64,000 nucleotides of DNA. Source: Cladocopium goreaui (Eukaryota > Sar > Dinophyceae > Suessiales > Symbiodiniaceae). Under the pieces are notes generated by a model. The model searched no databases and was not told the origin of the DNA. It saw nothing but the letters and a program-made list of their open reading frames with translations. The stretch covers positions 371,723-435,722 of the forward strand of contig CAMXCT020006445.1 of NCBI GenBank assembly GCA_947184155.2, read 5' to 3'. Shown here one piece after another: positions 9,806 through 54,950 of the stretch. How positions within the stretch are numbered: the first letter of the stretch is position 1; every line of letters begins with the position of its first letter. Position numbers and translations under genes: made by a program.

Positions 9806-11226
9806 CGTAGTACCGCACAAGGCGCTGGCGGAAGTTTCACAGATAGGAAACTATAGGAGAGGTGAGTTGTTGTGATGCATGGATGGCAGAGCTTGCTGAT
9901 AGACAGATAGATAAACAGAACAGATATATAGATAGACAGATAGATAGACAACTGCAACTACACTACAGCTACAACTACAATTTCAACGACACTTCCACTA
10001 AAACAGCTACAACTTCAACTACAATTACAATTACACAACGCTACAGCTACAACTACCACTACAACTGCAACATTACAACTTCAACAACATCAACTACAGT
10101 ACAACTATAATTGCAACTGCAACTACAACTACAAATACATTGCACTTCGCTACACCACACTACATCCTGCAGTTGTCGGTGAGGTGACCACTGCAACCAC
10201 TCCAAAAATCACAACCACCTTTCGGTCCATCTGCGAGACTTCCAAAGTTTTTGAACTTTACAACATCAAAAACACAGCAATTCTGCCAGACTTCCTCAAC
10301 TTTTGAACTTGATAACGTCACAAGCGAAGCAATGCTGCGAGACTTCCTCAACTTTTGAAGTTGGCAACATCAAAAACGAACCAATTCTGCGAGACTTCCT
10401 TCAATAATGGAAAATTGAGTGCAGAGCTGACGACCTCGTGCCAATGCGTTTTGCGATTCTTCCAGTCCATATCTCTAAAGTATGGCGCCTGCCACGAAAA
10501 AGTGAGGCCGGGTCATACGAACTGCTGCACCTGTCACACAAACTCATCTTCCCCAAACTGAAGATCTGATGCCCCAAAATGCAACCTGTCTCAGGAAATC
10601 AGCGCAAAAAGTGGTCCGAACATGCCCGGACATGTGGTGTTTTTAACATGTTGACTTGGAAATGTGCTTCGCGACACAACAGCGTACACTTTTTCAAGCT
10701 GAAGTTTTTTTGCACATTTTGACTTCAAAACGTGCTTCGCGCCACGATGAGGTGCACTTTTTCGACATCTCAACTTCCAAAAGTGGTCCGAACATGAGGT
10801 GCTTTGTGCATTTTGACTTCGAAATGTGCTTCGCGCCGCAACGCCCTGCACTTTTCAAAATCTCAACTTCGAAAAGGTTCGAGACGGTCAGTTTTTAACA
10901 CTTTTCACTTCGAAATGTGCTTCGCGCCACAACGGCGTGCAATTTTTCATCTCTCATCTGGTCAGATGGCTCCGCACCCGCCGCTTTAGCGAGCCTACTT
11001 TTTGACCCTCCGAACTCCGGTCCGGAGCCACAAATCATTGCAAAAACGCAGTGAATCGCAACTTTTCTACCTTTTCGCGCGCCTGCATCTTCTTTCCTCT
11101 GACTCTTTCTCTTCTCTGATCTTTTTTCTTCTTCTCTTCTCTTCTCTGACTCTTCCCACCTCTGCTTTTCCGTCTGTCCATATTGTTAGAAGTTTGACTT
11201 CTAAACTTCCTTCGATCATCATGTAA
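9806..11226 (+). repeat. Large dispersed repeat, copy 1
   Basis: Starts near gtagtaccgcacaaggcgctgg, includes an expanded GATA/CAACTA microsatellite, tandem ~55-60 bp units with gcgagacttcctcaacttttg, and a core with recurrent gtgcttcgcgccacaacg motifs, ending in a C/T-rich stretch and gacttctaaacttccttcgatc. The second copy at 18838-20370 matches in order and strand. Core translations (MCFAPQRRAIFHLSSGQ) recur in both copies. Confidence 0.8.
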
Positions 11227-12445: not shown

Positions 12446-12996
12446 ATGCACAGTGTATCTAACAACTGCATCTAGATGTTACAATCCCTTTTTGAAATAC
12501 TCATGCTGTTTGGGCCAAGCCTTTGTGCATGTCTGGATTCCCATTCATGCTATACGTTTTTTCTACCAAGCTAGTATAGTATGAGTGGACAAAACCATGA
12601 TTTTCTGGTTTGCTTGGTCTACTAGCCGTTCTAGGGCGCTGAACTCATCTTCAATCACAAGCCAGCACAAAGAAACTTGTGGATATTCATCTAGTGTTTG
12701 TTTCAACCACCCAGGGATGATGAACCTTTAAACAAACACCTTGTAGACGATATCCGCAACTCTATTGCTTGTATTTCTATGCAATTATTATATGTCGTCA
12801 TGTTGGTTGGAAAAAAATCAAACCACTATTCTTGTTTTCTATTCCCATAGTATGTCCGTTCTTCATGAGTTCGAGATCACCAGTTTCTACATCTGTTCTT
12901 GGATACGCTTCAAAAAAAGGCCAGTTTCAGCTACAAGTAGAACTATCAATCTTCCCTCTCAAAATGACAGCTTCAAAAAATAACGTCGAACATAAT

Positions 12997-13113
12997 TGGT
13001 TGGTGGTTTCAACCCCTCTCAAAAATATTAGTCAGTTGGGATTATTATTCTCAATATATATATACATATATATATATGGAAACATAAAATTCATGCTCCA
13101 AACCACCATCCAG
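12997..13113. mobile_element. Family A introner-like element A1
   Basis: Left end TTGGTTGGTGGTTTCAACCCC, right end AACCACCATCCAG, flanked by ataat on both sides (candidate target duplication). Followed by a 55-65 bp stretch, also present after element A6, that ends cacctacagaacccctccgg. Confidence 0.7.
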
Positions 13114-13146: not shown

Positions 13147-16100
13147 CTACAGAACCCCTCCGGTTGAACTTCGGCAGCGATGCTGCGCCTGCTGCGCCTG
13201 CGCCTTCGGCTACGACTTGGAGCAGGGCCGGCGTGGCGGCTGTCCTGGTGATGGTTTAGGATGGTTTATTGCCGTAATCCTAGTCCTACCAGGTCCTACC
13301 ATTTGTTTCATCCTAGTTTTCATGTAGCGAATCTACAAAACAACTAGTCGAATCCAGGATCTATCATATCTATCATATCTCAGAAGGATTCAACAGGATT
13401 TAAGCATGCGATGATTTTTCAGCACGGAAAGTTTCGAGATCAACGTGGCATCTCTGTGGCTTCGGAAGTTTTGTCTAGGGCCTCCAGACATCACTCGACC
13501 AGAGTGGACAGGATGGGGTCCCAGCTCGTTAGCTAAGTTGGTGCAAATGACTACAATTAACAAGTAATAGTGTATGATACTTATAATATCTTATAATTAT
13601 ATTCAGATAGGGTTATACGCCAACTTATGACAGTGGGGCACCATCCTGTGATTATTGTGGCTTCAAGCCGCGTTCAAATTCAGTAGCTGGACATGAGTCA
13701 CCAGTGTAAATTTGACCTTTCGAACTGGAGGAACTGGAGCAGAAATGGTGACAGCACCAAAGAATAGAGCATCAATCAATGCGTTTCACAGAAACTCAGA
13801 ACCATCTACTACACCCACTGAGGTAGCCCCAACGCCCAAATTGGTGTTTCTGGTGGGTATACTCCCAGCAAGGCGCAGTATCCCCATGGAAAGCCCCCAG
13901 GTCTGGCCTCAGGCCCCTTGCCTTGGCCTTTGCGCTGGAGCATCTCCTCGCGAGTTTTCAAGGGTCTGGAAAAACAAAGGTGCTGGTGATGATGTAATAG
14001 GTTTATGATGGTTTGTGATGGTTTATAAACGTTTATGATGGTTTATAACAGGTTTATAATGGTTAATCATGATATCATGGCAAATGGTCTTTAATCGCTA
14101 AAATATACAGTAGGTGGTACACCACTGGCTGCGGCCATCGAGCCAAGTCAGACTCAGTCTCATCTGGTTTCTGGTTTGAACCCATTCTCAAAAACGCATT
14201 GACACACAATAAATATATATAATAGTATAATATAGTATATACATATAGCTTTTAACTTAGTTTTAACCCATCCCCCAAAAAAATCATTGAAAACATATTG
14301 AAACACAATAGATGTTTGAAAACCCTGGCCAGTCATAACCTTTCATGCCGCCTTCGCTCCTTGGGTCGTCCAGATTCCCTCTCGATGGTACGGATGCGAT
14401 TGATGGCCATTCCGATGGGATTCTGTGCCCGCTTGATATTGTCGACCTGGCCGCAAGAAATGAACTAGATCATTTGAAGTTCATAGATAGATACAGATAG
14501 ATCAAGCTTTGGATCTAGATTCAGATCTAGATTTTCAGTTTCAGAAACTAGCGGATCTAGCGGATCGATCAAAATGGAGGTTTCCTGAAATAGGGCTACC
14601 CCCCCCTTATCATCCATTTTAGATTGGTTTTTTTTTCCTCATAAACCATCCATTTTGCTCGTGGAAATCCCCATGGAAATCCCCTTGAGCGAAAACCACC
14701 TCCGCTGGCTCCAGAAGCCGCTCAAGGTCTTCGCGGTGCATGTTCCTCAGGGTCTGGGAGATTTCTGAACATCAACTGGACAACTCAACAACCTGCAGGA
14801 AAGAACCAAGGGGAAGAACTTGCAGAGCGTATGAATCAACCATGAACTTAATTCAGATGATCATTGAAAGTCATGTTGGTATGATGATCATGTTGGTAAT
14901 TCTAAGTATTATGGCTAGAAATGAATGATGAATGGCAGACTAACATTCTCATTTGAGCACCTCATGGCTCGGTCGACCACCTTAGAACTACTTCCTTCAC
15001 CTAGGCTTTGACATGTGTGCCAGAGAGCGTTCATACTGTGACATACCATCAGTGGAGGTAACACTGTAACGTTACATTTTGGAAATCGCAAAGTTGCATT
15101 CTTGGAAATGGTCACGTTATATCCTTGACTGATGCGCCATTTTCAGTGGCCTTCTGTTTCTGTTGCCAGCAGAGTTGCTGCCGCGCAATGTGTGGCCTTG
15201 AAATCTCCATCCGTCACAGTTGGCCACCACACGTCGTCACAGAACATTTCACCTCTGGTAATGACTGTAACAGTTTGCTATTGAAAATGGCTCATTCACA
15301 GGGCATGACCTATTCCAAACGGTGATAGCAACCAGTTCGCAAACTGTAAGCGTTTACCAGAGGGTAATGCTTTTCTGTGACCTTACAATCCTGACATTTT
15401 CGGAGGACCACCAAACAGCACTGCACTGAGGGGTGTCATGACACCACTTGCGGACATGCTACGCTGGGAGGAGGTGGGGGGAGGGTGAAGAAAATGTAAA
15501 AAAAGCATCTTTCTGATATAGAATAATATATAGTATATATAATATATCATATATCATGATATACCGTCCTTTTCCCTAGAAAGTTCCTGCAAGTTACACG
15601 TTTGACTCCGGTGATTTTTAATTATGTCTTGAACCTAAGGGATTTCCAGCATATTTGGGATGATGGCCATACCTGGTGGTGTTTTTGCCCATTTGACCCA
15701 CCATCATTTTCCCAGCAAAATCGACAGGGCGCTGCATCATTCCGCGAATCTTTGCAATGAGTCCTGGGGCGAATCCCACAGGCACTGAATGCACTGAATC
15801 CTGAAATTCATTGCTGGGCTGACTCCTGGGTGTCTGACTGGAAAATCGATCAATCGTCCAAAATTTCACAGGAACCGCAGCATTTCCATCTGGTTGGTGG
15901 TTTCAAAACCCCTCTGAAAAATATGAGAGTCAGTTGGATTTGTTATTTCAACATATGGAAACATAAAAATGTTCCAAACCATCAACCAACCATAAATCAT
16001 CTTAAATCATCTTAAATCATCAGTGACATTATCTTCGGTCTGTCAGAAGACTCAGCTTGTGAAGTCAACTGGAAATGGGTTGTGGCTTTGCCATTCTCTA

Positions 16101-19100
16101 CAGAATGGGGAACTCTTTGAGATGCTGACAGCAGGTCAGTGACAGCTTTGAAATCCTTTGAATTTCTCCTTCTCCCAATTTAGCTTTTAATTTGAGAAAG
16201 GGCTGAAAACCAAATGGCATGCGGCCTTTCAACCTACGATTGCCATCTCCCTTGGTAAGTGGCTAATATCTACATGGCATTAATATCGCCCCAGTTGACC
16301 TCAAGTGAAAGACTGTTGCTTCAAACCGGCACCTTCCGAGGCTTACGAACTAATTGGACGATCCGAAAAAGTCTTCAAAATACTGCTGGCTTTCATCCCT
16401 AGTGACCAGGGTAACCAGGGTACATTGGGAGTTGGGATGCACCAAACAAAGTTGTACTATACACTACTAATTAACTTAATCTAGATTGTTGGTAAATTCA
16501 GAGATGACAATTTGTCCCAGCAAGGTCAGAGCCCGACGCAAAACCATGCATCCAAGTCGCGACCCTTGATGCCCACCTTCGCTTGAGAAGGGTGGAAGGT
16601 TTCAAGTGTTCAATCCAAAGGAATCTTTGTAAGTCTGGATTAAGAAGGGTGATTCAACATGTTCTCAAACGCACCTGCAGGAAAACAGGATGTGCCTTCT
16701 GAACTCATTGACTGTTATGGTTTGTTGCATTCGAAATTGTCCGGTCCCAGTGCATTGTCTCAAGAAAAGAGCGCACAAACTACGCAAAAAAACAACCAAA
16801 TTTGATGCTAGCTAAAACATATTTGACCAGTTCGTGATTTCCAATAATTAACTAAGTTCCAATAATGTATCAATTTCTCACAATTTTCCCAACAAATACA
16901 CATGTTCTAGCCCTTTTGAATACACGTTTCCAGTCATTTACCGCAACAAAAAAATGGGGGTTCCAGGTGCAGCAGCCGCGCCGTCTCGCAGAAGTCGTTG
17001 TAAACGTCTAAATCATCCTACGTCTTGCAGAAGCCACGCCAAATCACCAAAAACAGCAATAATACTGTATATCAGTTATCATATTATGCATATATGATGT
17101 TTATCTATGTATATATCATATTATGATATAATTAATCATATCACAGTTATCAAATATTTAATATAGTATAATTATACGTGTGTATATATATATGTTTTTT
17201 ATATATATATATATAGTATAACTATATATAATTATATTCAAAATTTGCCTACAACAATGCATATCAGTGCATGACTTCCTCCAATCTTTGCCTTGAACGA
17301 AGTGAAGCTAGAGATATGAAGATGTCTTGTCTGCTTTTGTTGTACCGTCATGATTGTTGATGAATGTAAGACTGTAAGAAATTGATTGCTGTTGAATATG
17401 TCCGGTCCCACTTCTTACTCATGGATCCGTATATATTTCTTGTCAATCTATCTCTTTTGTTTTTGGGAATGTGGAAGATTCTTCCATCAATTTCGCTTCA
17501 ATCCTATAATCATAGATCATTCCATCACTCAATTTGTGCATGTTTCTTCCCAGCGACAGCCACCAGCAGCACGGGGTCCTTGCTTCGATAGGCCAAATCC
17601 GTGAAGAGTGGCTTCTCCCGAGCTGGCGAATGCAACGCATGGCGGCGGCGTAAAAACCATCGTCCACGACTCAAAATGAAGCCGTCATTTACCTTCTGGT
17701 TATTTATTACATAGCCATGGTATAGATGGCCCATAGAAATAGATGGTTTACCGTTCTTAAAAATGGTGGATCTTTCTATGGCAAACTGTTAAATAACCAG
17801 ATGGTACTCCTCATTTACCCCTCATTTCCCCCCAGATCTTGATATCTGGCACTGAAATTGACCAATTGGATAAAAGAATGACAGTGGTTTAATGGTGGTT
17901 TAACCATGAAACATGCTGGTTTAATGGGATTCAAAAAACATGAGGATTTCAACGGGATTTGTATATGATTAATGTGGGTAAGTTAGAATGCAATTTTTAC
18001 TTACCACCCAGTCGACTGGGAATGGTAAGTGGAAATACCACCTTTTTTATGGTGATGACTGGGGGATGGTTTATGATTGTTTTACCAACATTATCCAATA
18101 TTATCCACTTATGGGCAATTCTCAATATTATTATCCAGTTGTAATTATCCAATAATTGGGTTAGTATGATATTAATTAACCATTATATTGGAACCGTTAC
18201 TTACCCACATTAATTGCGTCGTGTCATCGGATGAAACTGGGCCCACCTGGCCGCGAGCGCGAGCGGGAACGACGCAAGGCGCCCCGGCTGCGACTGGCGA
18301 GCGAGATCTGGCTGGGTTTGAGAACCTGGTTTTAAGAGGTCTCAAGAACTTTGACATCAAGTCAACCCAGAAATTCTTGACAGAAAATCTCGAAACGTGA
18401 GATGAGTCACTTGGAATACCCACGGGGGGATGAAACATCAAAGTTATCATTCATCCCTCCAAAGGTTCGCCCACACGAAAAAACAACACATCCAAACAAT
18501 ATGATATACTTATCACCAGAGGATGAATGAAAACACTGGCTATAGGCAGTGATTTTGACTTTGGGTTTTTAGGATTTAGGGTCTTAATTTTGGGTGGTTT
18601 AGGTTTTTAGGTTTTTAGGGTTCTAGGGTTTTAGGTTTTGGAAAGTAAAAAAAACGCTAGCCTTCGCGGGGATTTGAGCATGCCAAAGCATATGCAGGAT
18701 CCGATGCGGGCAAACGTGGGGTTTGCAGCGTCATTCATCCATTCTTGTTGATGGTTATCCCATGATTTGCCATGATTTTCCTATGATTAATCATGATTAA
18801 TAAGTATTAACCACTACTTACCATGTATATATATATATACCAGTAGTACCGCACAAGGCCGTGGCCGAAGTTTCAAAAATAGGAAGGAAACCTATGAGAG
18901 GTTGGTTGTTGTGAACCACGGATGGCAGAGCGAAGCCACTGATGGATCGAAAGGTGGTTGATGTCTCCTCTCTTTCTCTCTCTTTCTCTCTCTTTCTGTC
19001 TCTTTCTCTGACTATCTACCTACCTACCCACCTATCTATCTATCTATCCATCTAGCTGTCTATCTATCCATCTATCCATCTATCCATCTATCCATCTATC

Positions 19101-22100
19101 CATCTATCTATCTACCTACCTACCTATCTATCTATCTATCTATCTGTCTCTCTGTCTGTCTGTCTGTCTGTCTATCTACCTGTCTATCTGCAAGCTTGAA
19201 ACCGAAGCTATCCTGCAAGACTTCCGCAATGTTTGAACTTGACAACGTCAAAAACGAAGCAATTCTGCGAGACTTCGTCATTTTTCAAAGTTGACACTTC
19301 CGCAATGTTTGAACTTGACAACGTCAAAAACGAAGCAATTCTGCGAGAATTCGTCATTTTTCAAAGTTGACAACATCAAAAACGAAGCAATTCTGCGAGA
19401 CTTCGTCATTTTTCAAAGTTGACAACGTCAAAAACGACGCAATTCTGCGAGACTTCGTCATTTTTCAAAGTTGACAACATCAAAAACAAAGCAATTCTGC
19501 GAGACTTCCTCAATTTTCGAAGTTGACAACATCAAAAACGGAAGAATTCTGCGAGACGTCCTTCAAAAGTGGAAAGTTGAGTGCAGAGCTGACGGCCTCG
19601 TACCAATGCGTTTTGCGATTTTTCCGCTCGATCTGTCTAAACTACTGCGCCTGCCACGAAAAAGTGATGCCAGGTCATACGAAGCTGCACCTGTAGCGCA
19701 AAATCATCTCAGCAAACCTGAAGATCTAATGCTCCAAAATGCAACCCCTCTCAGGACATCAGCGCCCGGACCTCCTAACAGCTCTGATGAACATGTCTCT
19801 TGTACTGCGCCTGCCACGGAAAATGCATCTTTGCAGATCCTCTTCAAATGTCCCACGCCTGCCATCGTTTTTGGAAATGCTACAAAGCCCTCACCTTTTC
19901 ACTTTTGAGAAGGTGCCTCATACCTTGCGCCTGCCACGCGAAACGACATCTGAACCTCCAAAAGTGGCGCGAACATGTGGTGTTTTGTACATTTTGACTT
20001 CGAAATGTGCTTCGCGCCACAACGGCGTGCACCTTTTCGACAGCCCAACTCCTAAAAGTGCTCCGAAGCTGAGGTGCTTTGTACATTTTGACTTGGAAAT
20101 GTGCTTCACGCCACAACGGCGTGCAATTTTTCATCTCTCATCTGGCCAGCTGGCTCCGCACCCCCCGCTTTAGCGAGCCTACTTTTCGACCCTCCGGAGC
20201 CACAAATCATTGGAAAAACAATGTTTCGCGACTTTCCTACCTTTTCGCGCACCTGGATCTTCTTTCTTCTGACTCTTTCTCTTCTCTTCTCTCTAACTCT
20301 TCCCGTCTCTGCTTTTCATCTGTCAATGTTGTCGGAAGTTTGACTTCTAAACTTCCTTTGATAATTATATATATATATATTGATAGTATTATTAGTATTG
20401 TTGATGATTTTCCCTTTCTTAACCATTATTAACCAGATCCACAACATTCAAACTGGCTTTCTACAGCAGGTACTGTTTCATGTTGGGGGAAAGGACTACC
20501 AAAGCCTGTCCCCACATCTATCCTCTCCATTTCCAACGAAAAACAAGCCTGTCAAAATTCAGTTGGCTGATGATCAGTTAGGGATACCCTTCACATTTTT
20601 TGGGGATCATCGCCATATGAAAATCAGATGGCTTGGTCCCGTCATGCGCCTCGATCGCCTGTCGAAATCATCACCTTCACAAGTCATCCAACGGCTGTAC
20701 AAACTAACTCTCAGACAAAACTGATCAAGAGATTGGTTGAAGGCAGAAACTACCAGAAACTACCAAAAATCAATAGAATCATGGATTTCCCATGATTTTC
20801 CCATGAACCAATGGATTGATGTTTACCGTACCAATCTTGGTATATGTGAAACATATGGAAATACCACCAACAAAGAATGGGTAACATATACATATATAGT
20901 GCAGATTGAAGCAAACATGTTTGTTGATGTTTGTTGTTTTGTTTTACGGTTTTCTGCATTGATCACATTTTAAATCCTGGCCAAATCACATCATTTAGCT
21001 GGTGGGATGGATGCTTATCCCCTATGATGTGGCAAAAAATGATGATATATACAGTATATATATATATATATATATACTGTAGTAGCGGACAAAATTATTT
21101 GTTAAATTTAATGCCATGCACAAATTAGGGTCGTCCCCTATCGGTTGTGAGGATTTCGGTGCTCCCGGAGGTATCACAAATGGGGAAAGGGTATAGGGTC
21201 GTCCCCTATCGGTTGTGAAGGTTTTGTGCAACCTCAGAAAGGCCATTGCGAAGCAAAACTAAATTAGTATTACAATAATTTTGTCGGTTCCTCATATAAT
21301 GTTATATATACATCTCAATGACTGGCATGAGTTGGAGTATACACCCAACGATGTCTCACAATACAACATTCCATTTGCAAAACCAACTTAGGAAACTAGC
21401 ATAACTATGGGCCGTCAAAACAAGACCAACAACACTTTTTCTTTTTTTGTTCTAAGGTTTCCTAAAATAGGGGTTAACCCCAAATATCAAATCATCTATT
21501 GAAAAACAGGTTTTTCCAATACACAACCATTCGTTTAGGATGCCCCTGACCAAATCCGTGACCAACTGTTGAGGTTCCGACCTGAAACCACAACAAAAAA
21601 CCTAGGGTTTTTTCGAACATGACTTCCCTGCTGAAAGTAGTGGAAACACATATCAGGTGTGGTATGTTTTTTTTTGAAATTCCAATGATGCTTCTGAGTT
21701 TCTGCGACAGCATGGGAAGATCCAAAGGACAATGTAACATATAGCAACTCCCTAAAAAATAGAACAATCCAAACCATTCAAAACCCGTAAAATCATATCA
21801 AGATAATGCTAAATTATATTTCTGTTTTTTTTTGGGGGTTATATACTGTATATAACACAAGATATCTGAAAATAGGTTGCAACCCAAATGGATGGGTTAT
21901 CATCACACTCCCTATCAGAAACCACATTTTTGTTGGTTAAAACTCCTTTTTTGGTATGTGTGTGTGTGTCCAAAAGTTGGTATACTGTACACCTCAAAAT
22001 GGTCCAATCAAAGGAAACTATGAAATTCTCAACCAGGGGCTCTTGCAGTATCTCCCCGTCGGAATAAACATGTGAGCAGTGTTCAAAACCATTTGTCATT

Positions 22101-24536: not shown

Positions 24537-24664
24537 CTGGTTGGTGGTGCTGGCTGTGCCCATCTTTAAAAATGATGGACTTCGTCAAAGGGAAGGATAA
24601 TTATCCCATATATTAATATATTAATATATATATATTATGGAAAGTGTTTGAAACCACCAACCAG
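24537..24664. mobile_element. Family A introner-like element A3
   Basis: CTGGTTGGTGGTGC to AAACCACCAACCAG, flanked by gatgg / atgga. On the minus strand, removal joins an open frame in phase 0 (INIHL then PSIAPKLG); the plus-strand join makes a stop. Confidence 0.7.
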
Positions 24665-27196: not shown

Positions 27197-27687
27197 TTTT
27201 ACACACCGCGTAATCTCTGCGTCTCGCAGATCCAGATCTCAAACGCCTGGGCGACAACAGCCAAAGATCTCAGCTCCAAGTGATTCCATTCCCATATGCT
27301 CCATGTATGGTATATTTACCTACATTTGGGTGTTTCTTGGGGCAAATGTTGGTAAATATTCCATGCATGGAGCATATGGGAATGGCTTTTAGATGCTTTT
27401 AGACTGTGGTGGAACAAGACTGGATCATACAGACATATACAGACTGTTGGACTACTCTAAAACCATTCCAAAACCACCCGTGATCTCAGTTCATCTGGCC
27501 AGTTCTCTCATCATCCGCAAGGGGGTTCTTAACACAATGGTAGACCTCCAATTGAGAATGGTTCCAAGTGTTACTGTAAAATTCTGTGGATTTTTGGGGA
27601 TGCTTTGGAATTGCTTGGCTATACAGCGGTGTGGCCTTCATCGACCCATTGGTTCCAAGGGAAGCCGGTGTGGCTCGGACCTGCTAG
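27197..27687 (+). CDS. Two candidate exons downstream of the 26.9 kb exon
   Basis: Exon 27197-27279 follows CTCCCCAG and reads FYTPRNLCVSQIQISNAWAT to CCAA|GTGATT (phase 2). Exon 27627-27687 follows ATACAG, takes one base, and reads GVAFIDPLVPREAGVART before a TAG stop. A family C element lies just inside the intron. Whether these belong with 26917-27088 is inference from phase (0/0 and 2/1). Confidence 0.4.
27289..27382. mobile_element. Family C inverted-repeat element C1
   Basis: TTCCCATATGCTCCATG to CATGGAGCATATGGGAA, with ggtatatttacctacattt and aatgttggtaaatattcc inside. Near-perfect inverted termini of 17 bp. Confidence 0.75.
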
Positions 27688-27973: not shown

Positions 27974-28086
27974 GGAACCACCGTGGTAAACCCAGATAAA
28001 AAAAACCGACTGAAAAATTCTTTCTCAACCAGACCATCCGTGGTTGGCCCCATAGGAGAGGAGGTTAAACATGATTAGATGTAATT

Positions 28087-28195
28087 CCCATATGCTCCAT
28101 GTATAGTATATATATATATTTACATATATTTACCCACATTTGGGGCCATTTGTGGGGTAAATGTAGGTAAATATTCCATACATGGAGCATATGGG
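28087..28195. mobile_element. Family C inverted-repeat element C2
   Basis: CCCATATGCTCCATGTATAG to CATACATGGAGCATATGGG; the same internal taaatgtaggtaaatattcc. Confidence 0.75.
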
Positions 28196-28419: not shown

Positions 28420-29735
28420 ATGAATGACGAGCCTGACCTACTTCTCTGGTCCCTGAAGACTAAAGAAACATGCTGCTACCAAAGCATCATATACGCCCGT
28501 TCAACCCTAATGCCAATACAATCGAAGCCCTGGTCTAGTATATCCAGTATTAGATCTATGAATTTTGAAGGACCATGTGGGTGGACTTCAATATGGGGTG
28601 ATGAGACTATACCTGGTTAGTGGTGCAATAACCATCTTGAAAAATATGAAAGTCAATGGGAAGGATTATCCCATATATTATGGAACATAGAACATGTTTG
28701 AAACCACCAACCAGTATATAATTGGGATACCCTCCGGCAATCAGACGTGGCAATTGAAAATCCCCCACTTGATGTTCGAAGATTTTCCCCTGAACACCTC
28801 CATTTCCAGAGGATTTTCGCCACGTTTCGTTGCCTAGAGGGTGCCCCAAGCAATGGTTTTATCCCTATATCCCAGTATATATCCAAATATCCACATAGAA
28901 TTGTTGCATATTGTTGCCTCATGATGCGCCCATTTTTGAAATACCTGTGCTTCTCAAGTTATTGGGGTACCCTTGGACCTTGGAACTGCACCGATTGATT
29001 CCCCCAGGACCAAGGACTTGGATGAGTGCGGGTGTGCCATGGTCATTTGACCTACCGGGTAGTTGGCTGTACAAATATGTCACAAGACGGACAAAACGTT
29101 GCAGAAAAACAGGGGCTGGTTGGTGGTGCAATGTGCCCATCTTGAAAAATATGAGTCAATGGGGAGGATGATATGAACAAATATGAAATGGAAAATAACA
29201 GCCATATTTGAAACCACCAACCAGGGGGTCATCCCACTTTCACGGACTATTCCAATCCCATTGGCTTTTTCTACGTCAATCCCTGTACTTCGAGAACCAT
29301 CCCCGAACTTGCGGATGCCTCATGTTCAGAGCCATATGAAGGCGACTGCTTGTGGATCTCATGAAATATCATATTATAATATATAAAAATCCTTACATAT
29401 CCCGTGAAATGGTGGAATCCACCATTCTTAGCTTTAGTATATAATATATTTATATATGTATATACTGTATTTGTTATCCCATATAATTCTACATTAATAT
29501 ATATATATCATAATATATCCTTATCTTAGTTAATTAGGTAATCCACCATTATTAGCTATATATATATACCCAAATTAACTATTGTATAGCCAAATATATA
29601 ATTATCCATTATAGCTAATATTTGGGATAATTAGCTATTATCTTCTCCAGCAATGATCCCCTGCGTCCTCTGTGCGGCGTCAATGCCCCCATCACTGGGA
29701 CGTGGAGCGTGGCTCAACGGACTCCTGGTGCAGCT
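28420..29735 (+). CDS. Five-exon gene interrupted by two family A introners
   Basis: Exons 28420-28615, 28715-28840, 29008-29118, 29225-29351 and 29651-29735. Intron 1 (28616-28714) and intron 3 (29119-29224) are each exactly one family A element: donor CTG|GTT, acceptor CCAACCAG. Phase is kept at all four junctions (1/2, 1/2, 1/2, 2/1). Readable pieces include NWDTLRQSDVAIENPPLDV, PRTWMSAGVPWSFDLPGSW, TFTDYSNPIGFFYVNP and NDPLRPLCGVNAPITGTWS. The C-terminal part is Cys-rich. A possible start ATG is at 28420, but upstream exons cannot be excluded. The model ends at GCT|GTGACG, so the 3' end is missing. The second exon could instead run on to about 28990 with a shorter intron. No family recognised. 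Confidence 0.5.
28613..28714 (+). mobile_element. Family A introner A4 (forms intron 28616-28714)
   Basis: CTG|GTTAGTGG at the left and ACCACCAACCAG| at the right, flanked by tatac / tatat. Removing 99 nt joins DETIP to YNWDTLRQ through one codon (phase 1/2). Confidence 0.75.
29116..29224 (+). mobile_element. Family A introner A5 (forms intron 29119-29224)
   Basis: CTG|GTTGGTGG to CCACCAACCAG|, flanked by gggg on both sides. Removing 106 nt joins RKTGA to GHPTFTDYS in phase. One of the two clearest examples. Confidence 0.78.
29651..29735 (+). CDS. Exon after a strong polypyrimidine acceptor
   Basis: Acceptor TATCTTCTCCAG, then a frame reading NDPLRPLCGVNAPITGTWS and ending at GCAGCT|GTGACG. 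It takes the two bases left by exon 29225-29351 to form a Phe codon. It is GC-rich between AT-rich flanks. Likely the fifth exon of the 28.4 kb gene. Confidence 0.5.
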
Positions 29736-31040: not shown

Positions 31041-31147
31041 CTGGTTGGTGGTTGAGCCTACCCCTCAGAAAAATATGAGTTCGTCAGTTGGGGTTATTCT
31101 TCCCAACATATGGAAAAATAAAATTCATGTTCCAAACCACCAACCAG
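31041..31147. mobile_element. Family A introner-like element A6
   Basis: CTGGTTGGTGGTTGAGCC to AAACCACCAACCAG. Followed by the same extension as A1 (ataatcatcaatcacatgtcc to cctccggttgaa). Flanks are AT-rich and not clearly coding. Confidence 0.7.
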
Positions 31148-37004: not shown

Positions 37005-37332
37005 TTTTTCGTCTTGAAACAGAAATGTTCGTTGGTCAAAAGCCAAATTTCCCATATGCAACCCATGGTGCTGGTATATTTACCTACATGACTAGGTGGT
37101 TTTGTTCGGGCAAATGTTGGTAAATATTCCAGCACCATGGAGCATATGGGTTTTGGTGAACACCGTTTCACAGCCTTTTTTTAAAATGAGGTCAGCCTGC
37201 TTAAACCCAGCCGAGCAACCACCCGCACTTGCAGTGAAGTGGGTCGCACTCTCTCCTGCATCCAGAACGGGAGAAACTTCGCTGAATTTTCTACGCGAGG
37301 AAGAAAAGAACATATCTGAAATCTCGGGTTGA
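37005..37332 (+). CDS. Coding segment split by a family C element
   Basis: Upstream frame RNVRWSKAKFPICNP reaches CCATG|GTGCTGG inside the left end of a family C element. After CATGGAG at its right end the frame resumes in phase: WVLVNTVSQPFFKMRSACLN, then PAEQPPALAVKWVALSPASR, then LNFLREEEKNISEISG and TGA. The minus strand is also open over 37.1-37.3 kb, so strand is not certain. Confidence 0.38.
37051..37150. mobile_element. Family C element C3 with divergent left end
   Basis: CCCATATGCAACCCATGG to CCATGGAGCATATGGG, inner arms tgctggtatatttacc / ggtaaatattccagca. Flanked by open frames that can join across it. Confidence 0.72.
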
Positions 37333-38141: not shown

Positions 38142-38245
38142 CTGGTTGGTGGTATACCTACCCCTCTGAACAATGTGAAAGTCAATGGGAAGGATTATTC
38201 CCAATATATGGAAAAATAAAATTCATGTTCCAAACCACCAACCAG
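38142..38245. mobile_element. Family A introner-like element A7
   Basis: CTGGTTGGTGGTATACC to AAACCACCAACCAG with the family interior (tcaatgggaaggattattccc, ggaaaaataaaattcatgtt). Flanks are AT-rich tandem DNA. Confidence 0.7.
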
Positions 38246-38905: not shown

Positions 38906-39141
38906 TTGCTAGTAATGGCTCTCATATGCTTTCACTACCATCCTCAGTCTTCCAACCCCTTTTTTGGCAGGGTCTATGTGAGTCGGGAGATACACTGAGG
39001 AAATCTTAAATCTTTCGGGATATTGGGGATGGTTTACAAGTTGCCACCCAAAAGACCCATCTTTGTTGCGATAAACCCACTGAAAGCTCCAATAACCGGG
39101 ACAGTTTATACTGCGTACGTACCCATTTCTTGTACGTACTT

Positions 39142-39231
39142 CCCATAGGATCCATGTATGGTATATAAGCTAACATTGGGGGTATATTGATGGTAAATGT
39201 TACCATATATAGCATACATGGATCCTATGGG
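39142..39231. mobile_element. Family C element C4 with altered ends
   Basis: CCCATAGGATCCATGTATGG to CATACATGGATCCTATGGG: the paired ends changed together relative to C1, keeping the inverted match. Confidence 0.7.
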
Positions 39232-40147: not shown

Positions 40148-40268
40148 CTGCTTGGTGGTTTTTCGCCTACCCCTCTGAAAAATATTAACTATATAGTCAG
40201 TTGGGATTATGAAATTCCCAATTAATATGGCAAGTCATAAAATTCCATGGTTCCAAACCACCAACCAG
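40148..40268 (+). mobile_element. Family A introner-like element A8
   Basis: Left end degenerate (CTGCTTGGTGG) but still carries CTTG|GTGG; right end ACCACCAACCAG|. Plus frames stay open across removal. It lies just upstream of the 40.38 kb gene. Confidence 0.62.
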
Positions 40269-41555: not shown

Positions 41556-42264
41556 TCAATCCAGCAGCTTTTTTCTCCGTTTCTTGGGGTTGCTCCCAAC
41601 ACCCCAGTTATAAGAAAACGGGTAAACTGGATGAATAACGAGGTAAGAGCAGAAATTGTCCACCCTTGCATCATTAGTTGGAGCAACCCTGTTTGTTGCT
41701 GAATTCCCATGACATTGATCTGGGTAAATTGTAATATTTCACTGACCTGAATCTTGCGGCCATGAATGGGGATGATTTCCCTAAAATAAACCATGATTCC
41801 CAGTGAGGGAGCACAGGGTTCGGTCGCGATCAAATTTACCCAGATTGATGGTTAAACCGTGTCAAATCACACGAAAAAAATCACCATCTCTTTGCTTGTT
41901 TTGAACTACCCAGGCCTGGAGCTTGTGGGCAGGGCGATGTGGGCATCTGCAACTTGGGACTTTGAGGCACCACTGTGGCGCCAACTCTTTGCCTTAGCTT
42001 CAGCTTGGAGAATGGTGGCTTACCCTCTGCTAAACTGACATAGTCATGGAAAATCACCATATGTTTAATATGTAAATCAACGAACTTTTTATGGCCATTG
42101 AAACAGCAAACTCTTAGTTTACCAGATGGGATTGAAACCCATTGGAGCCCAATGAATGGGGATATCAACGCTCCCGGGGTTTGGTGGATTTCATCATCTA
42201 ATGGGTTCACCAACAGTGGGGGACATGATGAGATATACGTCACCGATATGATCTTTGGATGCGC
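41556..42264 (-). CDS. Three-exon gene end using family D and F elements as intron borders
   Basis: Exons 42264-42123, 42026-41910 and 41719-41556 (TGA). Exon 1 starts after CATCTTCAG in phase 0 and includes DDEIHQTPGALISPFIGLQW. Intron 42122-42027 is a family D element (CATCTG|GTAAAC to AGCAG|AGGG). Exon 2 reads GKPPFSKLKLRQRVGATVV. The next intron starts CTGG|GTAGTT and ends at the right border of a family F element, TTTACCCAG. Exon 3 reads DQCHGNSATNRVAP and ends with a basic tail, PKKRRKKLLD. All phases agree (1/2, 1/2). The basic tail could be a nuclear signal. Upstream exons were not resolved. Confidence 0.52.
41718..41845 (-). mobile_element. Family F element F1 with 6 bp target duplication
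   Basis: Plus-strand CTGGGTAAATTGTAATA to CAAATTTACCCAG, flanked on both sides by attgat. Its interior tgatttccctaaaataaacc and cacagggttcggtcg match F2. On the minus strand its border supplies the acceptor of exon 41719-41556. Confidence 0.75.
42021..42129 (-). mobile_element. Family D introner D5 (forms intron 42027-42122)
   Basis: On the minus strand CATCTG|GTAAACTAAG to TTTAGCAG|AGGG. Removing 96 nt joins LQWVSIPS to EGKPPFSKLK through a split Glu codon. The clearest family D example. Confidence 0.75.
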
Positions 42265-43215: not shown

Positions 43216-43450
43216 CTAGGGAGTGGTTTTGTTGGGAAAATCTACGGGAAATCTTTGTTTTAACCCCAAGTTTATACTGGGAATGTACAACTGGGGCAAA
43301 CATCCCGTTACGGATGAATATCCAGGAATAAGCCGTTTCAGTTGGACGGATTTTGATCTGAAGTCATGATGGTCATGACATTGGAAATTGGCCAAAACAA
43401 CGACGGTGAAGACGAAACCCAAAAGAAACCTGAGTGATGAGTGTTGAGGT
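43216..43450 (-). CDS. Candidate terminal exon next to a family D element
   Basis: Open frame of about 78 codons: VPQHSSLRFLLGFVFTVVVL, then ANFQCHDHHDFRSKSVQLKR, ending PVDFPNKTTP and TAG. It begins at the right border of a family D element on this strand. A hydrophobic segment (LLGFVFTVVVLA) may be a membrane helix. The junction phase to an upstream exon was not resolved. Confidence 0.35.
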
Positions 43451-43528
43451 ACCCTCAGGTAATTTAACATAGCTACGTATGGAAAATCACCATTTTTAAT
43501 AGGTAAACCATCTATAAATGGGCCATTT

Positions 43529-43560
<32 letters not shown>
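43451..43560. mobile_element. Family D element D6
   Basis: ACCCTCAGGTAATTTAAC to TTAGTTTACCAGAGGGTA; interior gtatggaaaatcaccat and gggccattttccatagc, nearly a perfect inverted repeat. Confidence 0.72.
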
Positions 43561-45586: not shown

Positions 45587-45858
45587 CTTTGGTGAGTGGT
45601 TATTATAGTTACCCTCTGGTAAACTAACATAACTATGGAAAATCACAATTTTTAATGGGAAAACTCACTATAAATCACCATTTTCAATAGCTATGTTAAA
45701 TTACCAGAGGGTATACCATGGTTATACCACTTGGTTTCGTAGCCAGGCCGCTCCAGCAACTGCCGAGCACAACAAGGTGCAGACCACCACCACCTGCGCG
45801 CCATTTTCCGAGCACGGCGATAGTTACACCCGATCAACAGAAAAACATAGGGAGTCAA
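45587..45858 (+). CDS. Coding segment split by a family D element
   Basis: A short upstream frame (VSGYYSYPL) reaches CTCTG|GTAAAC; after TTACCAG at 45707 the frame continues in phase RVYHGYTTWFRSQAAPATAE, then HNKVQTTTTCAPFSEHGDSY. The minus strand is also in frame across the element. The coding-like GC island is 45730-45850. Confidence 0.36.
45611..45713. mobile_element. Family D introner D7 (possible intron 45619-45707)
   Basis: ACCCTCTG|GTAAACTAAC to AAATTACCAG|AGGGTA. Removing 89 nt leaves both strands open in phase 0. Confidence 0.68.
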
Positions 45859-46859
45859 CAAAGGAATATGTGACTTTAATGGTGGTTAATGGTGATTAAC
45901 ATAATGATTTAACATCTATGATGATTCATATGTATCAATATATCGTTTTTGTTTTTTAAATAGTGATTTAACATAATGAACCCAACAGTTCAGCGGTTTT
46001 ACCAACCGAGGATTTCAGCAGGATGCCTCTGTGATACAGCGAAACACCACCTGCATTTTACCAACAAAAAATCAGTTTTTTCGCAAGAAAACGGCAGATA
46101 GAAAACAAAGCAACCTTGTGATTCTAACATATTCTAATCAACAGACATGGAGATGTCACTGGAAAAATGATAAAAAATGGTCCCAGCACCAAGCAGAAGT
46201 TGCCATTCCCATTCGATAGTCCTGGCAGTTACCCTGCCTTTTTTGGGTAGTTTTAACATTTTTTAACCCATCTTAAAACTATGAGTCAATTGGGACCGAT
46301 ATTATCTTGTGCAGAGGCTTTGGACTATGAAAAACTTTCTTGAGATCACACATGATCACACACCAGCTATCTACAAGGAGGTGCCCCTTAGTTCTAAGTT
46401 TATGTATCTGTCTAACTATAGATAGATCTACAATAAACCAGACTTAACCAGACAGCAACTTCGCTTTTCAGCGGGCACCGCTTTGTGCAACTTCGGACAT
46501 CCCCACACAGTTGCCACCAAGTAGCTAAGACCGCTAGATTTGAGACATTTGGAGGTTGCTCAACTGCAGATTCGCTCCTAGGCATGGAGCAAAAACAATG
46601 GCATTGGCAGCAGCCACTTGTTTACTCGCTCTATTAGGATATTTCAGGATGCTGGGATCTCTTTACCCTTTAGCTTCTGCAAATCCTCCCTGTCTTCGGG
46701 CCTTTGATTGAGACATGTTGATCAAGCTTCCAATGTTTTCATGATTCTCCCTCGATTCTAGAGGACCCCTTTACTTTGGTCGAATCGCATCTTTGGCTCA
46801 ACATTTCCATGGCCAGCAAAAGCTCCATTTCTACTCCTTAAATGTTGATATTTCCCCAG

Positions 46860-48021: not shown

Positions 48022-49558
48022 CTTGAACAAGTTCAGTTACCAGCGGTTACCATAGTTCTCCCATGGCTTAACAGCTTGCATGGAACATCAACATTTCTAA
48101 TAGATAAATTAATATGTAAAAAAACAGGTAAATCCAAAATTGGACCATTTTCCATAGCTGTGAACTATGTGAAATTACTGGGTATAACGGATTTAATTTA
48201 TAGATGGGTTAACCCACTTAGGGGACTTACTAATCAGCGTTATTAACCAGTTAGGATTCGCGAGGAGGTTCTCAAAGTATGCCAGTGGTGGCTGTAGCAA
48301 TATACCCACCCAAATGGTGATGGCGGTTGATCACTCATGGCATCTAATTATGGACCATAACTCACTTCATGTTTTTTCGTTTTTTTCAACCAGAGAACTT
48401 AGAGAACTTGAAAAGTCTTCAATGTGAACTATGTTTGGGTTTACTATTTGGAGGAATGAGACCCGTTGAGGCTTCAGACGACCAACTCAAGAGGTGTCTA
48501 GTTGGGTCTAGTTTGGACCAGGATCGCCACCGTTTTGCCTAAACCGCCAGTTTAGACAAATGCATACAAATACAAAATACATCACTGTTTTTTTGGATGC
48601 TGGTGGATTCTTCTCTCACCACAGCTGTGATTTTGGTTCCTTTTCTGTAGCAGGGTTTCGAACGAGGCTGCAACATGTGGGTTTGTCTTAAGGGCACCCC
48701 CAAATCCCATCGTTGATTGTCATATTGGACAATTATCATCAGCATTCCAGGAACATATTCGAACATGATGATCAACATTGTCTGGTTGGTGGTTGAGCCT
48801 ACCCCTCTGAAAAATATGAGTTCGTCAGTTGGGATCATGACATTCCCAATTAATATGGCAATATGGAAAGTCATAAAATTCCATGGTTCCAAACCACCAA
48901 CCAGTATATCTCTAATACCATCTGGTTATTTAGCATAGCTGGCGGGAAAATCCATTCTAAATGGAGGTTTCTAGCTGGGAAAATCATCTGTAAATGGGCC
49001 ATTTTCCATAGCATCATCATCCCATTGGCGTCCTTGCCCAGCTCTGAGGACAACATGGCAACACTTCCGGCCGAGCTTACCACTTCCACCTGCCAAAAAA
49101 AGCAACGCGAAAGCCGCGAAGTCCATCAGAAAAGCATGGAAAAATGGAGGGTTGAACGGTCCATGGGTTTTTACAATGGGCTAAGCATGGTTTGAACATG
49201 ATTTGAACGTGGTTTTGAAGCAGCCTAAAATGGGAACAAGACCTGGTGGAAATGGCCATCTTTGGCCATCTTAGGGATTTCACCAATTTTCAGGCTCTGA
49301 ACATGACATTCATGCACTCATATAATAAAGCAAAAACACCCATTGCTTAATCATCATAGTCCCTTCTAGACTTCCACAGACTCACTTTCTGGGTAAAACA
49401 AACTGTAATGTGGTAAACCCATGTAAACCCAATAACAAACTCTCCAAGGTATCAACCAGCGATCCCCCAGCGACAGCGGGACAGCCCGCCCCCTCCTCCA
49501 ATTTCAGGCGGACGCTCAACCGTCGTCGTGTCCGTGCGGTCTCATTCACCACCCTGAC
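47866..49558 (-). CDS. Four-exon gene with basic C-terminal motif
   Basis: Exons 49558-49457 (VRVVNETARTRRRLSVRLKL), 49089 to about 49021 (VEVVSSAGSVAMLSSELGKD), 48781-48620 (TMLIIMFEYVPGMLMIIVQY, later SKPCYRKGTKITAV) and 48021-47866 (EMLHTELLETWDEKGLPLED, then SVAGPKKKKPRRGEREAAK and TAA). Exon 2 has a strong acceptor, GCTTTTTTTGGCAG. Exon 3 begins exactly where a family A element ends (CCAACCAG). Phase 0 throughout, apart from an unresolved junction between exons 2 and 3, where a degenerate family D element and a 20 nt mini-exon may intervene. The KKKKPRR cluster looks like a nuclear localisation signal. Product unknown. Confidence 0.55.
48782..48904 (-). mobile_element. Family A introner A9
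   Basis: Both ends intact. On the minus strand its right border CCAACCAG is the acceptor of exon 48781-48620, and its left border gives ATACTG|GTTGGTGG, phase 0. The interior resembles A6 and A8. Confidence 0.72.
48914..49013. mobile_element. Family D element D9 (degenerate)
   Basis: ACCATCTGGTTATTTAGCAT at the left and gggccattttccatagcat near the right; the right border has decayed. It sits 10 bp from element A9, so only about 20 nt of possible exon lies between them. Confidence 0.5.
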
Positions 49559-50573: not shown

Positions 50574-50671
50574 CGTGGCCAACAGCCTAGCCCTGTGCAT
50601 GTGAACACGCAGAACATGAATAGCACAGAAGACAGTGGAGACAGTAATGTTGTAAACAAAATCATAGACCT

Positions 50672-50767
50672 AATTGGTGGTTTCAACCCCCCTGAAAAAT
50701 ATTAGTCAGATTGGATCATCATCCCAACTATTGGGGAAAATAAAACATGTTCCAAACCACCAACCAG
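50672..50767. mobile_element. Family A introner-like element A10
   Basis: Left end AATTGGTGGTTTCAACCCCCC, interior ctgaaaaatattagtcag, right end AAACCACCAACCAG. Shortest copy. Confidence 0.65.
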
Positions 50768-50941
50768 AGACCTACTTAAGAGCCACCAACCAAAATAACA
50801 CAAATAACCTTCCCCAAATGATGGATTCAGGCCTGGGAAATAACATATAACCTTAAACAAATCAAAGGAATTGAGCTGTGTTCGAAACCCCTGTTGGTTG
50901 ATGATTATAGGGAACTACCCAATATATTGGGTATTATATAT

Positions 50942-51062
50942 CTGGGTAAATTATAATATTTCACTAACCTGAATAGTTCAGCTATTTAGGGATGATTTCC
51001 CTAAAATAAACCATGATTCCAGGGGTCGGGAGAACAGGGTTCGGTCGTTATAATTTACCCAG
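50942..51062. mobile_element. Family F element F2
   Basis: TCTGGGTAAATTATAATA to TATAATTTACCCAGA, flanked by atatat / atatat. Same interior as F1. No coding flank seen. Confidence 0.72.
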
Positions 51063-51171
51063 ATATATAATATATTGTAAATAATTGAATAGGGGAATCC
51101 CCATTGACCAGCTGGGTTTCCTTAGATATTTCAAGTTGTTCACGACGATAGCGTCACCTGTACATCTGCAG

Positions 51172-54123: not shown

Positions 54124-54950
54124 CCTTATTCCAAGCTGTGCAAAACATTACCGTTTCACAAGCAAATGCCTCCTGTCTGTCTCCCGCCCCACTTTTTTCT
54201 TTTCCCTAATTCGCAACTTATTCCAAACTGCACAAAACATTTGTGTTTTCACAGGTTAGTGCAGCATTTGTGTTTCCCCTCTCATTTTTTCCTATTCCCT
54301 TATTCGCATTTTTTTCCAAACTGCACAAAACATTGTGTTTTCACAGGCAGTGCAGCCTTTGTGCTTCCCATCCCATTTTTTCTATTCCCTAGTTTGCAAC
54401 TTATACAAAAATGCACAAAAACATTGTTTTCACAGGTAAATCCTGCATGTGTCTCTGGTCCCTTCTTGTTCTATTCCCTAATTCACGACTAATTCGTTTG
54501 ACGTGGCCCTGCCAATGGATTTTGCAATTTGCGATGTGCAAGGTTTTTAGAAAAGGACAAACATGGTTCAGAACAGTCTCATGCCGTGCAAGCTGCAAAT
54601 CAATTGGCACGGCCACGCCAAACGAATTAGTCGTAAATAGGGAATGAGACAAAATGGGACCAGAGACCCATGCAGCATTTTCCTGTGAAAACACAATATT
54701 TTGTGCATTTTGGAATAAGTCGTGAATTAGGGAATAGAAAAAAAAGGGACCAGAGACACATACAGCATTTACGCGTGAAAACAATGTTTTGTGCAGTTTG
54801 GAATAAGTTGCGAATAAGGGAATAGGAAAAAATGCGACGGGAAGCACAAGTTGCACTTACCTGTCAAAACACAAGGTTTTGCGCAGGTTGGAATAAGTTG
54901 CGAATTAGGGAAAAATTGGAGGTAATGTTTTGGACAGCTTGGAATAAGGT
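54124..54950. repeat. Large palindrome built from tandem ~100 bp units
   Basis: Left arm (54124-54480) has about four units, each with aactgcacaaaacattgtg, ttttcacagg and ttcccta. The right arm (54630-54950) carries the same units in reverse complement. The centre pairs gactaattcgtttgacgtgg with ccacgccaaacgaattagtc around an unpaired core near 54560. The outermost bases also pair (tgaccttattccaagc / gcttggaataaggtca). Foldback-element-like. Confidence 0.8.

Follow-up and report, generated by a model that had tools for sequence, protein, structure and literature searches.

Introners are a leading explanation for bursts of intron gain, and ordinary MITEs are short, non-coding elements with terminal inverted repeats (TIRs), target-site duplications (TSDs), and very many copies. 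The closest described counterparts of the repeat studied here are the introners of Symbiodinium microadriaticum, which have TIRs and a 4-bp TSD, carry the 3′ splice site within the element, and take the 5′ splice site from the TSD (Gozashti et al., 2022; PMC9860276). According to excerpts of that survey, most S. microadriaticum introner families leave mRNA length unchanged, copy number ranges from 5 to more than 2,000 per family, and the analysis tests for enrichment in genes and allows insertion in both orientations. An excerpted review (PMC11453091) describes introner families from five dinoflagellate genomes (Roy et al., 2023) and gives 12,253 recently inserted introner introns for Polarella glacialis. 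In excerpts of the respective reports, the introner elements of Amoebophrya carry inverted repeats where the intron begins and ends, are bounded by short direct repeats, and have the potential to form hairpins (Farhat et al., 2021; PMC7789003), and Prorocentrum cordatum has inverted-repeat introns with short direct repeats at their boundaries (PMC10666404).

We compared these systems with family A, a repeat present in the window, that is, the whole 64-kb stretch of Cladocopium goreaui DNA analyzed here. Family A has in common with the S. microadriaticum introners the TIRs, the 4-bp TSD, the 3′ splice site within the element, and the TSD-derived donor. By comparison of descriptions, it differs in its number of at least 16,954 copies, in the position of 59 of 60 examined copies outside exons, and in an orientation that is locked in blocks. 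The families of Roy et al. (2023) and family A would all be recent dinoflagellate introners; the former are represented here by the excerpted review, so family A or its lock could be among them. As excerpted, the Amoebophrya introns are largely non-canonical and lack family-specific inverted repeats, whereas the family A intron described below is GT-AG and has a fixed TIR. An earlier sequence-only reading of the window had taken introners in dinoflagellates as established and had suggested that the family and its terminal design might be undescribed. For the type of design this does not hold: TIR introners with 4-bp TSDs and TSD-derived donors are already known (PMC9860276). What is unexpected here is that family A is locked in orientation over long blocks, non-exonic copies included; in excerpts of the open-licence PubMed Central literature, we found no description of introner copies outside exons that are locked in orientation.

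The assembly scanned comprises 1.17 Gb in 6,202 contigs. The core of the dinoflagellate spliced leader (SL) had 172 exact matches in it and none in a reversed control, so the host is a dinoflagellate. In the window, nhmmer found ten family A copies (E below 1e-15), all on the plus strand in the orientation of the sequence-only reading, which had correctly related two of them to eight more. We give strand as the splice-competent orientation (see below), in which these same copies lie on the minus strand. TSDs flank copy 2 (29116–29224; GGGG at 29112–29115 and 29225–29228) and the copies at 12996–13113 (ATAA), 15890–15989 (CCAT), 24537–24664 (ATGG), 40148–40268 (TTTA), and 50670–50767 (AGAC), and the copy at 31041–31147 has a TSD that matches in three of four positions (ATAG/ATAA). 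No clean TSD was seen at 38142–38245, at 48782–48904 (a copy with a counterpart in L018, a duplicate locus that is nearly identical), or at copy 1 (28613 or 28614 to 28714), where by eye TATA stands on both sides with one extra base. Copies 1 and 2 had been placed at 28616–28714 and 29119–29224; both elements are there, but their TIRs include the preceding CTG and begin at 28613/28614 and 29116. Both start with CTGGTT and finish with CCAACCAG, as had been noted. The weaker nhmmer matches in the window were a 42-base fragment at 46265–46306 and hits in reverse to these palindromic ends.

Two copies of family F lie on the minus strand, in the same orientation as family A, at 41716–41847 (TIR CTGGGTAAATT..AATTTACCCAG) and 50938–51065 (TSD ATAT, by eye). 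The family F TIR can also be given as CTGGGTAAATTATAA..TTATAATTTACCCAG, with GGTAAAT at the start and TTCAGGTTAGT inside, and the family was found in loci L008, L034, L029, L049, and L076 as well. Family B, a palindromic repeat (22,554 exact 18-mers) that served as the orientation control and is listed with no strand, occurs at 45609–45713, 43449–43560, 17690–17807, and 149–257, and family C, a long near-palindrome, at 27287–27380, 28084–28195, 37048–37150, and 39139–39231. The window also contains 52-bp tandem repeats at 10183–10450 and 19241–19612, 9 kb apart within a larger duplicated stretch of ∼84% identity, and a cluster of nested inverted repeats at 54178–54914 with arms of 42–79 nt and complementarity of up to 93%. 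A search of part of the window ORFs found no clear gene to confirm the direction of the block.

The element was characterized on 60 full copies, obtained from 69 matches after nine that were not full length had been set aside. Duplicate loci had been taken out first: L001 and L017 for a related reading-frame count on 56 copies, and L007, L018, L061, and L067 additionally for the 60-copy set. Family A is 85–128 bp long with ends CTGGTTGGTGGT...ACCACCAACCAG; a CTGG start was present in 47/60 copies and a CCAG end in 52/60. We found a perfect 4-bp TSD at 22/60 copies, against 1.5 expected from shuffled flanks, and perfect duplications numbered 0–1 at other offsets and 0–6 at other lengths; the remaining 38/60 copies had no perfect TSD. 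Together, the symmetric CTGG...CCAG ends and the 4-bp TSD indicate that family A inserted at the DNA level, by a staggered cut. The 22 perfect TSDs comprise 20 different sequences, and across these intact sites we found no strand-asymmetric target motif, at most a weak and roughly symmetric NTAN; such a motif was therefore rejected as the cause of orientation. As RNA, four of the four copies tested folded better than every one of 200 shuffles (z −3.2 to −5.2), and their ends were paired. One internal 16-mer occurred exactly 16,954 times genome-wide and not once in a reversed control, a lower bound on the number of copies given that it counts one exact 16-mer. Since this 16-mer is present in three of nine full window copies, the genome total may, as a rough figure, be around fifty thousand. 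Judged by its sequence features, family A is a non-autonomous TIR element, probably a DNA transposon (MITE) of introner type.

A kinesin-domain search gave 24 loci, which were then scanned for family A. One copy, common to three overlapping loci (contig C3546; L063/L067), fills the gap between two kinesin exons, with the junction sequence ...AACAAGA/GTTT-CTGGTTGG...ACCACCAACCAG/GTTTGAGTGCC... (slashes mark the cuts). GTTT, the target copy on the upstream side, supplies the donor GT with its first two bases, and the last AG of the element serves as acceptor. Removing GTTT and the element restores INKSLSALGN (join ...GANINKSLSALGNVI...) and leaves a spliced exon identical to the empty site, with no net coding change. 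The joined peptide matched 155 PDB sequences (best E 4.8e-42), with kinesins among the matches listed (60 of 155), and in two alignments, both to KIF4, the junction was crossed without a gap. In the splice-competent orientation, coding scores across the junction were positive for this copy alone out of 60 (13.2 bits; the next scored −0.2); opposite to the splice-competent strand, two other copies scored 3.2 and 2.5 bits. From the conserved protein we infer that the kinesin copy is spliced as a GT-AG intron, which supports the idea that family A can be an introner.

Kinesin is the one gene in which family A was found as an intron between exons, with no second gene among the fetched loci. With one of 60 copies scoring above zero across the junction, family A copies appear to lie almost only outside exons. 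Furthermore, GT or GA follows the element in at most 8/60 copies, so most could not be spliced in the manner of the kinesin copy. The genome search suggested alongside the sequence-only reading gave copies in great number, one of the 60 examined coinciding with an intron between exons. By eye, an intron of ∼119 nt in the kinesin gene of L055 (contig C5891) has a possible introner form with a repeated target GTGA; its ends, CTTGG...TTCCAG, are unlike those of family A.

The kinesin copy runs in the reverse of the orientation in which the sequence-only reading had taken family A. In this splice-competent orientation, the family A consensus has CTGAC and then TCATATTTTTCAG. A branch-like CTRAC within the last 70 bases was present in 41/60 copies, as against 0/60 when reversed, and a T-rich AG within the last 50 bases in 40/60, as against 0/60; these signals are inherited by descent, so the 40 copies are not independent events.

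We then returned to copies 1 and 2, which had been read as precise, in-phase introns of one plus-strand gene, cut at CTG/GTT and CAG/, whose removal joins coding-like frames. After removal of both elements, the plus strand does hold open frames, of 164 codons over junction 1 and 119 codons over junction 2. The first of these (492 nt) is longer than the frames at all 1,097 control positions (maximum 453 nt), a comparison in which the controls were drawn from shorter stretches, which caps their length, and in which junction 1 was one of ten window copies to choose from. However, neither frame is coding-like: they scored −40.6 bits (−0.25 per codon) and −18.4 bits (−0.16 per codon) in a codon model fitted to kinesin exons from the same genome, in which 21 of 23 kinesin ORFs (some share a gene), each left out in turn, scored above zero. 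The two differ in frame, and each comes to a stop short of the other's junction; none spans both. The proposed cut would, moreover, leave CTG and the second target copy in the RNA, which at copy 2, with its target GGGG, amounts to 7 nt and a frameshift; in the demonstrated case, the donor GT comes from the target duplication and not from CTG/GTT; and CTRAC and T-rich AG are absent from that orientation in 60/60 copies. A plus-strand gene with these two introns is hardly credible, and we rejected it on the coding scores, the frames, and the missing splice signals.

On the minus strand, the target CCCC of copy 2 gives no GT, GC, or GA donor, and at copy 1 a GT follows the element with no matching target copy and a junction score of −22.0 bits. 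Across the 56 copies, the mean joined frame was 206 nt with the cut of the sequence-only reading, 216 nt for the empty site, 187 nt antisense, and 195 nt in controls. L034 (528 nt) was the only other copy to exceed all controls, and a general surplus of open frames at family A copies was rejected (206 versus 195 nt). The interpretation as an introner therefore stands for family A, with its TIR, its 4-bp TSD, and one exact kinesin intron, and falls for copies 1 and 2, neither of which interrupts an exon by its negative coding scores and differing frames. We regard both as ordinary family A copies outside exons, in a block where genes are predicted to lie on the minus strand.

To map orientation, we used four pattern searches over contigs C2–C115, taking the matches listed, merging places closer than 125 bp, and dropping by eye those that repeated earlier lists. 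Among the matches listed, neighboring family A copies agreed in 244/254 pairs (324 copies on 70 contigs): 65/66 below 10 kb, 115/116 at 10–50 kb, 53/56 at 50–150 kb, and 11/16 beyond, or 180/182 within 50 kb. No copy disagreed with both of its neighbors in 197 triples among the matches listed. The first list for family A (C2–C6, C8) gave agreement of 91/94 adjacent copies (p 1.4e-23) and the family B control (C2–C6) 51/95, in both cases among the matches listed. We scanned the fetched loci at E 1e-6 and found none with both family A orientations; a sub-threshold fragment at the C6 switch (37 bases, 19 bits) differs in orientation from the copy at the far end of the same locus. Rather than being inserted in either orientation, as a MITE might be, family A is locked in blocks. 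To the features of ordinary MITEs it adds this orientation lock and the capacity to form an intron, and family B, which is unlocked, resembles an ordinary MITE-like repeat. We conclude that the examined family A copies keep one orientation within blocks that can reach hundreds of kilobases, non-coding-like DNA included.

The lock is not shared by every repeat. In the fetched loci, agreement with the orientation of family A was 9/9 for family F (7 loci), 10/10 for family C (5 loci), and 30/65 for family B. A looser scan gave 10 to 1 for family C, and orientation was mixed for families B (26 versus 34), D (4 versus 9), and G (4 versus 2). Orientation as a trait of all repeats was rejected on these mixed families, and the lock is therefore specific to some repeat families. 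Family C is a near-palindrome with two nearly equal ends, yet it keeps the same orientation as family A. In their locked orientation, families C and F carry few of the family A splice signals, with 0/11 for both CTRAC and T-rich AG in family C, and 0/10 for CTRAC and 1/10 for T-rich AG in family F, so that the lock is not accounted for by splice signals alone. Four pairs of loci on different contigs are near-identical (98.7–100%; L017/L018, L006/L007, L064/L065, and L077/L081). They are either uncollapsed haplotypes or recent duplications, and would be useful for finding polymorphic insertions.

Genes in this genome are unidirectional. Neighboring genes of different type on one contig were on the same strand in 18/19 pairs (one of the 18, on C2380, perhaps bacterial). 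Same-type pairs were left uncounted; of three SL pairs among them, those on C41 and C385 agree and the one on C459 disagrees. An excerpt of a published study describes unidirectional genes in S. microadriaticum (PMC8110479). As gene landmarks we used kinesin, ion channel, AAA, and kinase genes and SL relics (the first 100 of 172 listed). Among the matches listed, the nearest family A copy, read in the orientation of the sequence-only reading (A+), was opposite to the gene on 11/12 contigs (p 0.006), where a gene or SL relic had to lie within 70 kb, a limit chosen after seeing the list, or be bracketed by agreeing copies. On contigs beyond 70 kb and unbracketed, 5/10 were opposite, again among the matches listed. 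The contrary contig among the 12 is C586 (32 kb, a weak match with stops); C86 (112 kb) and C18 (153 kb) are contrary as well. Within the 11, the landmarks of C518 and C5618 are kinases found on several contigs with an ORF length and score that are identical or nearly so, and those of C781 and of the nearest point of C102 are SL relics; relics on C180, C224, and C2446, at 0.7–1.4 Mb from a family A copy, were counted as far. The count drew on some of the listed family A copies (block ends for C2–C8, a selection elsewhere, and C1 left out as bacterial-like), and positions of in-gene copies were rounded, so some distances are possibly overstated.

Within kinesin genes, the family A copies (one on C3546, two on C274, and one, partial, on C2146) and both family F copies, taken in the sense of the sequence-only reading, point against the gene. 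A contrary case is a weak family C copy (L073, 35 bits) that runs with its kinesin gene. Family B is an imperfect control here, since it leans one way relative to kinesin genes in 15/19 rows, or about 12 versus 4 distinct copies; the lean was seen in loci L058, L061, L073, L074, L076–L079, L081, and L082. The AAA search added one gene beside a known family A copy, on C3546, and eight SL-relic loci contained no family A copy. A Pfam search of 20 coding-like ORFs near family A copies gave no match over the cut-off. The best match below it, MFS_1 (E 0.0016, L039), lies on the strand opposite A+, and of three more weak matches (E 0.017–0.091) one (L005) lies on the A+ strand; none of these four enters the 11/12 count. 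Coding-like ORFs numbered 33 on the opposite strand versus 21 on the A+ strand, a non-significant difference by our own reckoning. Overall, the splice-competent orientation appears to run with nearby genes, as the nearest-gene count supports, which predicts minus-strand genes for the block that holds the window.

Two further observations concern the landmarks. Contig C1 (at least 7.28 Mb) is dense in long single-ORF kinase, AAA, and ion-channel genes on both strands, is missing from the family A and B lists, and looks like a bacterial chromosome within the assembly. A kinase ORF of 446 codons recurs with nearly equal score on nine contigs (C1298, C4657, C1535, C1247, C518, C779, C2657, C2890, and C557) and, judged by ORF length and score, is a multi-copy gene, perhaps mobile or retroposed.

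Taking these results together, we regard an introner-type MITE that is splice-competent one way, with its orientation locked along gene direction, as the probable and best overall explanation. A transposase acting in trans would move family A, as the TIR and TSD suggest, and a staggered cut at insertion would duplicate the 4-bp target. In an exon, the upstream target copy would lend the GT donor and the element the AG acceptor, and the exon would be restored. The lock could be set at insertion if the integration machinery senses which way a unidirectional gene block is transcribed (or replicated), and insertion polarized in this way would leave nearly every copy pre-set to be spliceable. We put such polarized insertion, with transcription or replication as the cue, just short of an even chance; that it places almost every family A insertion, exonic or not, in an orientation removable by the spliceosome is a tentative proposal that we put somewhat below even. 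Polarized insertion would explain the near absence of exceptions outside exons, whereas selection would explain why it is the splice-competent orientation, with its branch-like and T-rich AG signals, that survives. Under selection, the element would land both ways and antisense copies would be purged because whole gene blocks are transcribed, an account that we find possible but somewhat below an even chance, as we do the harm it would entail, namely cryptic splice or poly(A) sites or double-stranded RNA formed with sense copies. That family B, with different ends, is unlocked in the same DNA speaks for selection, though family B leans in the kinesin loci (15/19 rows). Against it, there were no isolated exceptions in 197 triples among the matches listed; 59/60 copies are without a coding junction in the splice-competent orientation, where near-complete purging needs antisense harm almost everywhere; and families C and F are locked without the branch-like and T-rich AG signals, which argues slightly against selection for splicing alone.

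The pattern might also follow gene direction merely by correlation, with integration sensing the direction of the replication fork. Either replication or transcription fits blocks that measure hundreds of kilobases, and either fits the weak GC skew, which averages −0.04 and is negative for the A+ strand in 28/37 loci (near-duplicate loci included), but under replication the match between genes and the splice-competent orientation would be a coincidence, and we consider this unlikely. A skew this small was rejected as the sole cause of orientation. Duplication of whole stretches, in place of separate insertions, could in principle produce the pattern, since four pairs of loci are near-identical and L002 and L037 each contain two copies with a common downstream flank; most listed copies, however, differ in their flanks, those pairs being the only exceptions among the copies listed, the 22 perfect TSDs are of 20 sequences, and duplication would have locked family B equally, which makes it very improbable as the source of the orientation pattern.

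A family of at least 16,954 copies that appears to obey gene direction even outside exons makes the question of why transposons become introns testable, and a comparison of young with old copies could tell polarized insertion from selection. If insertion is polarized, family A would integrate in a way that is unusual among DNA transposons. Under either cause, its copies could be a cheap means of marking the strand of transcription blocks in dinoflagellate genomes that lack annotation, and, if the lock holds as proposed, copy orientation would provide a sequence-only map of the direction of dinoflagellate gene blocks. Polarized integration, if true, would be a general reason for the success of introners in dinoflagellates.
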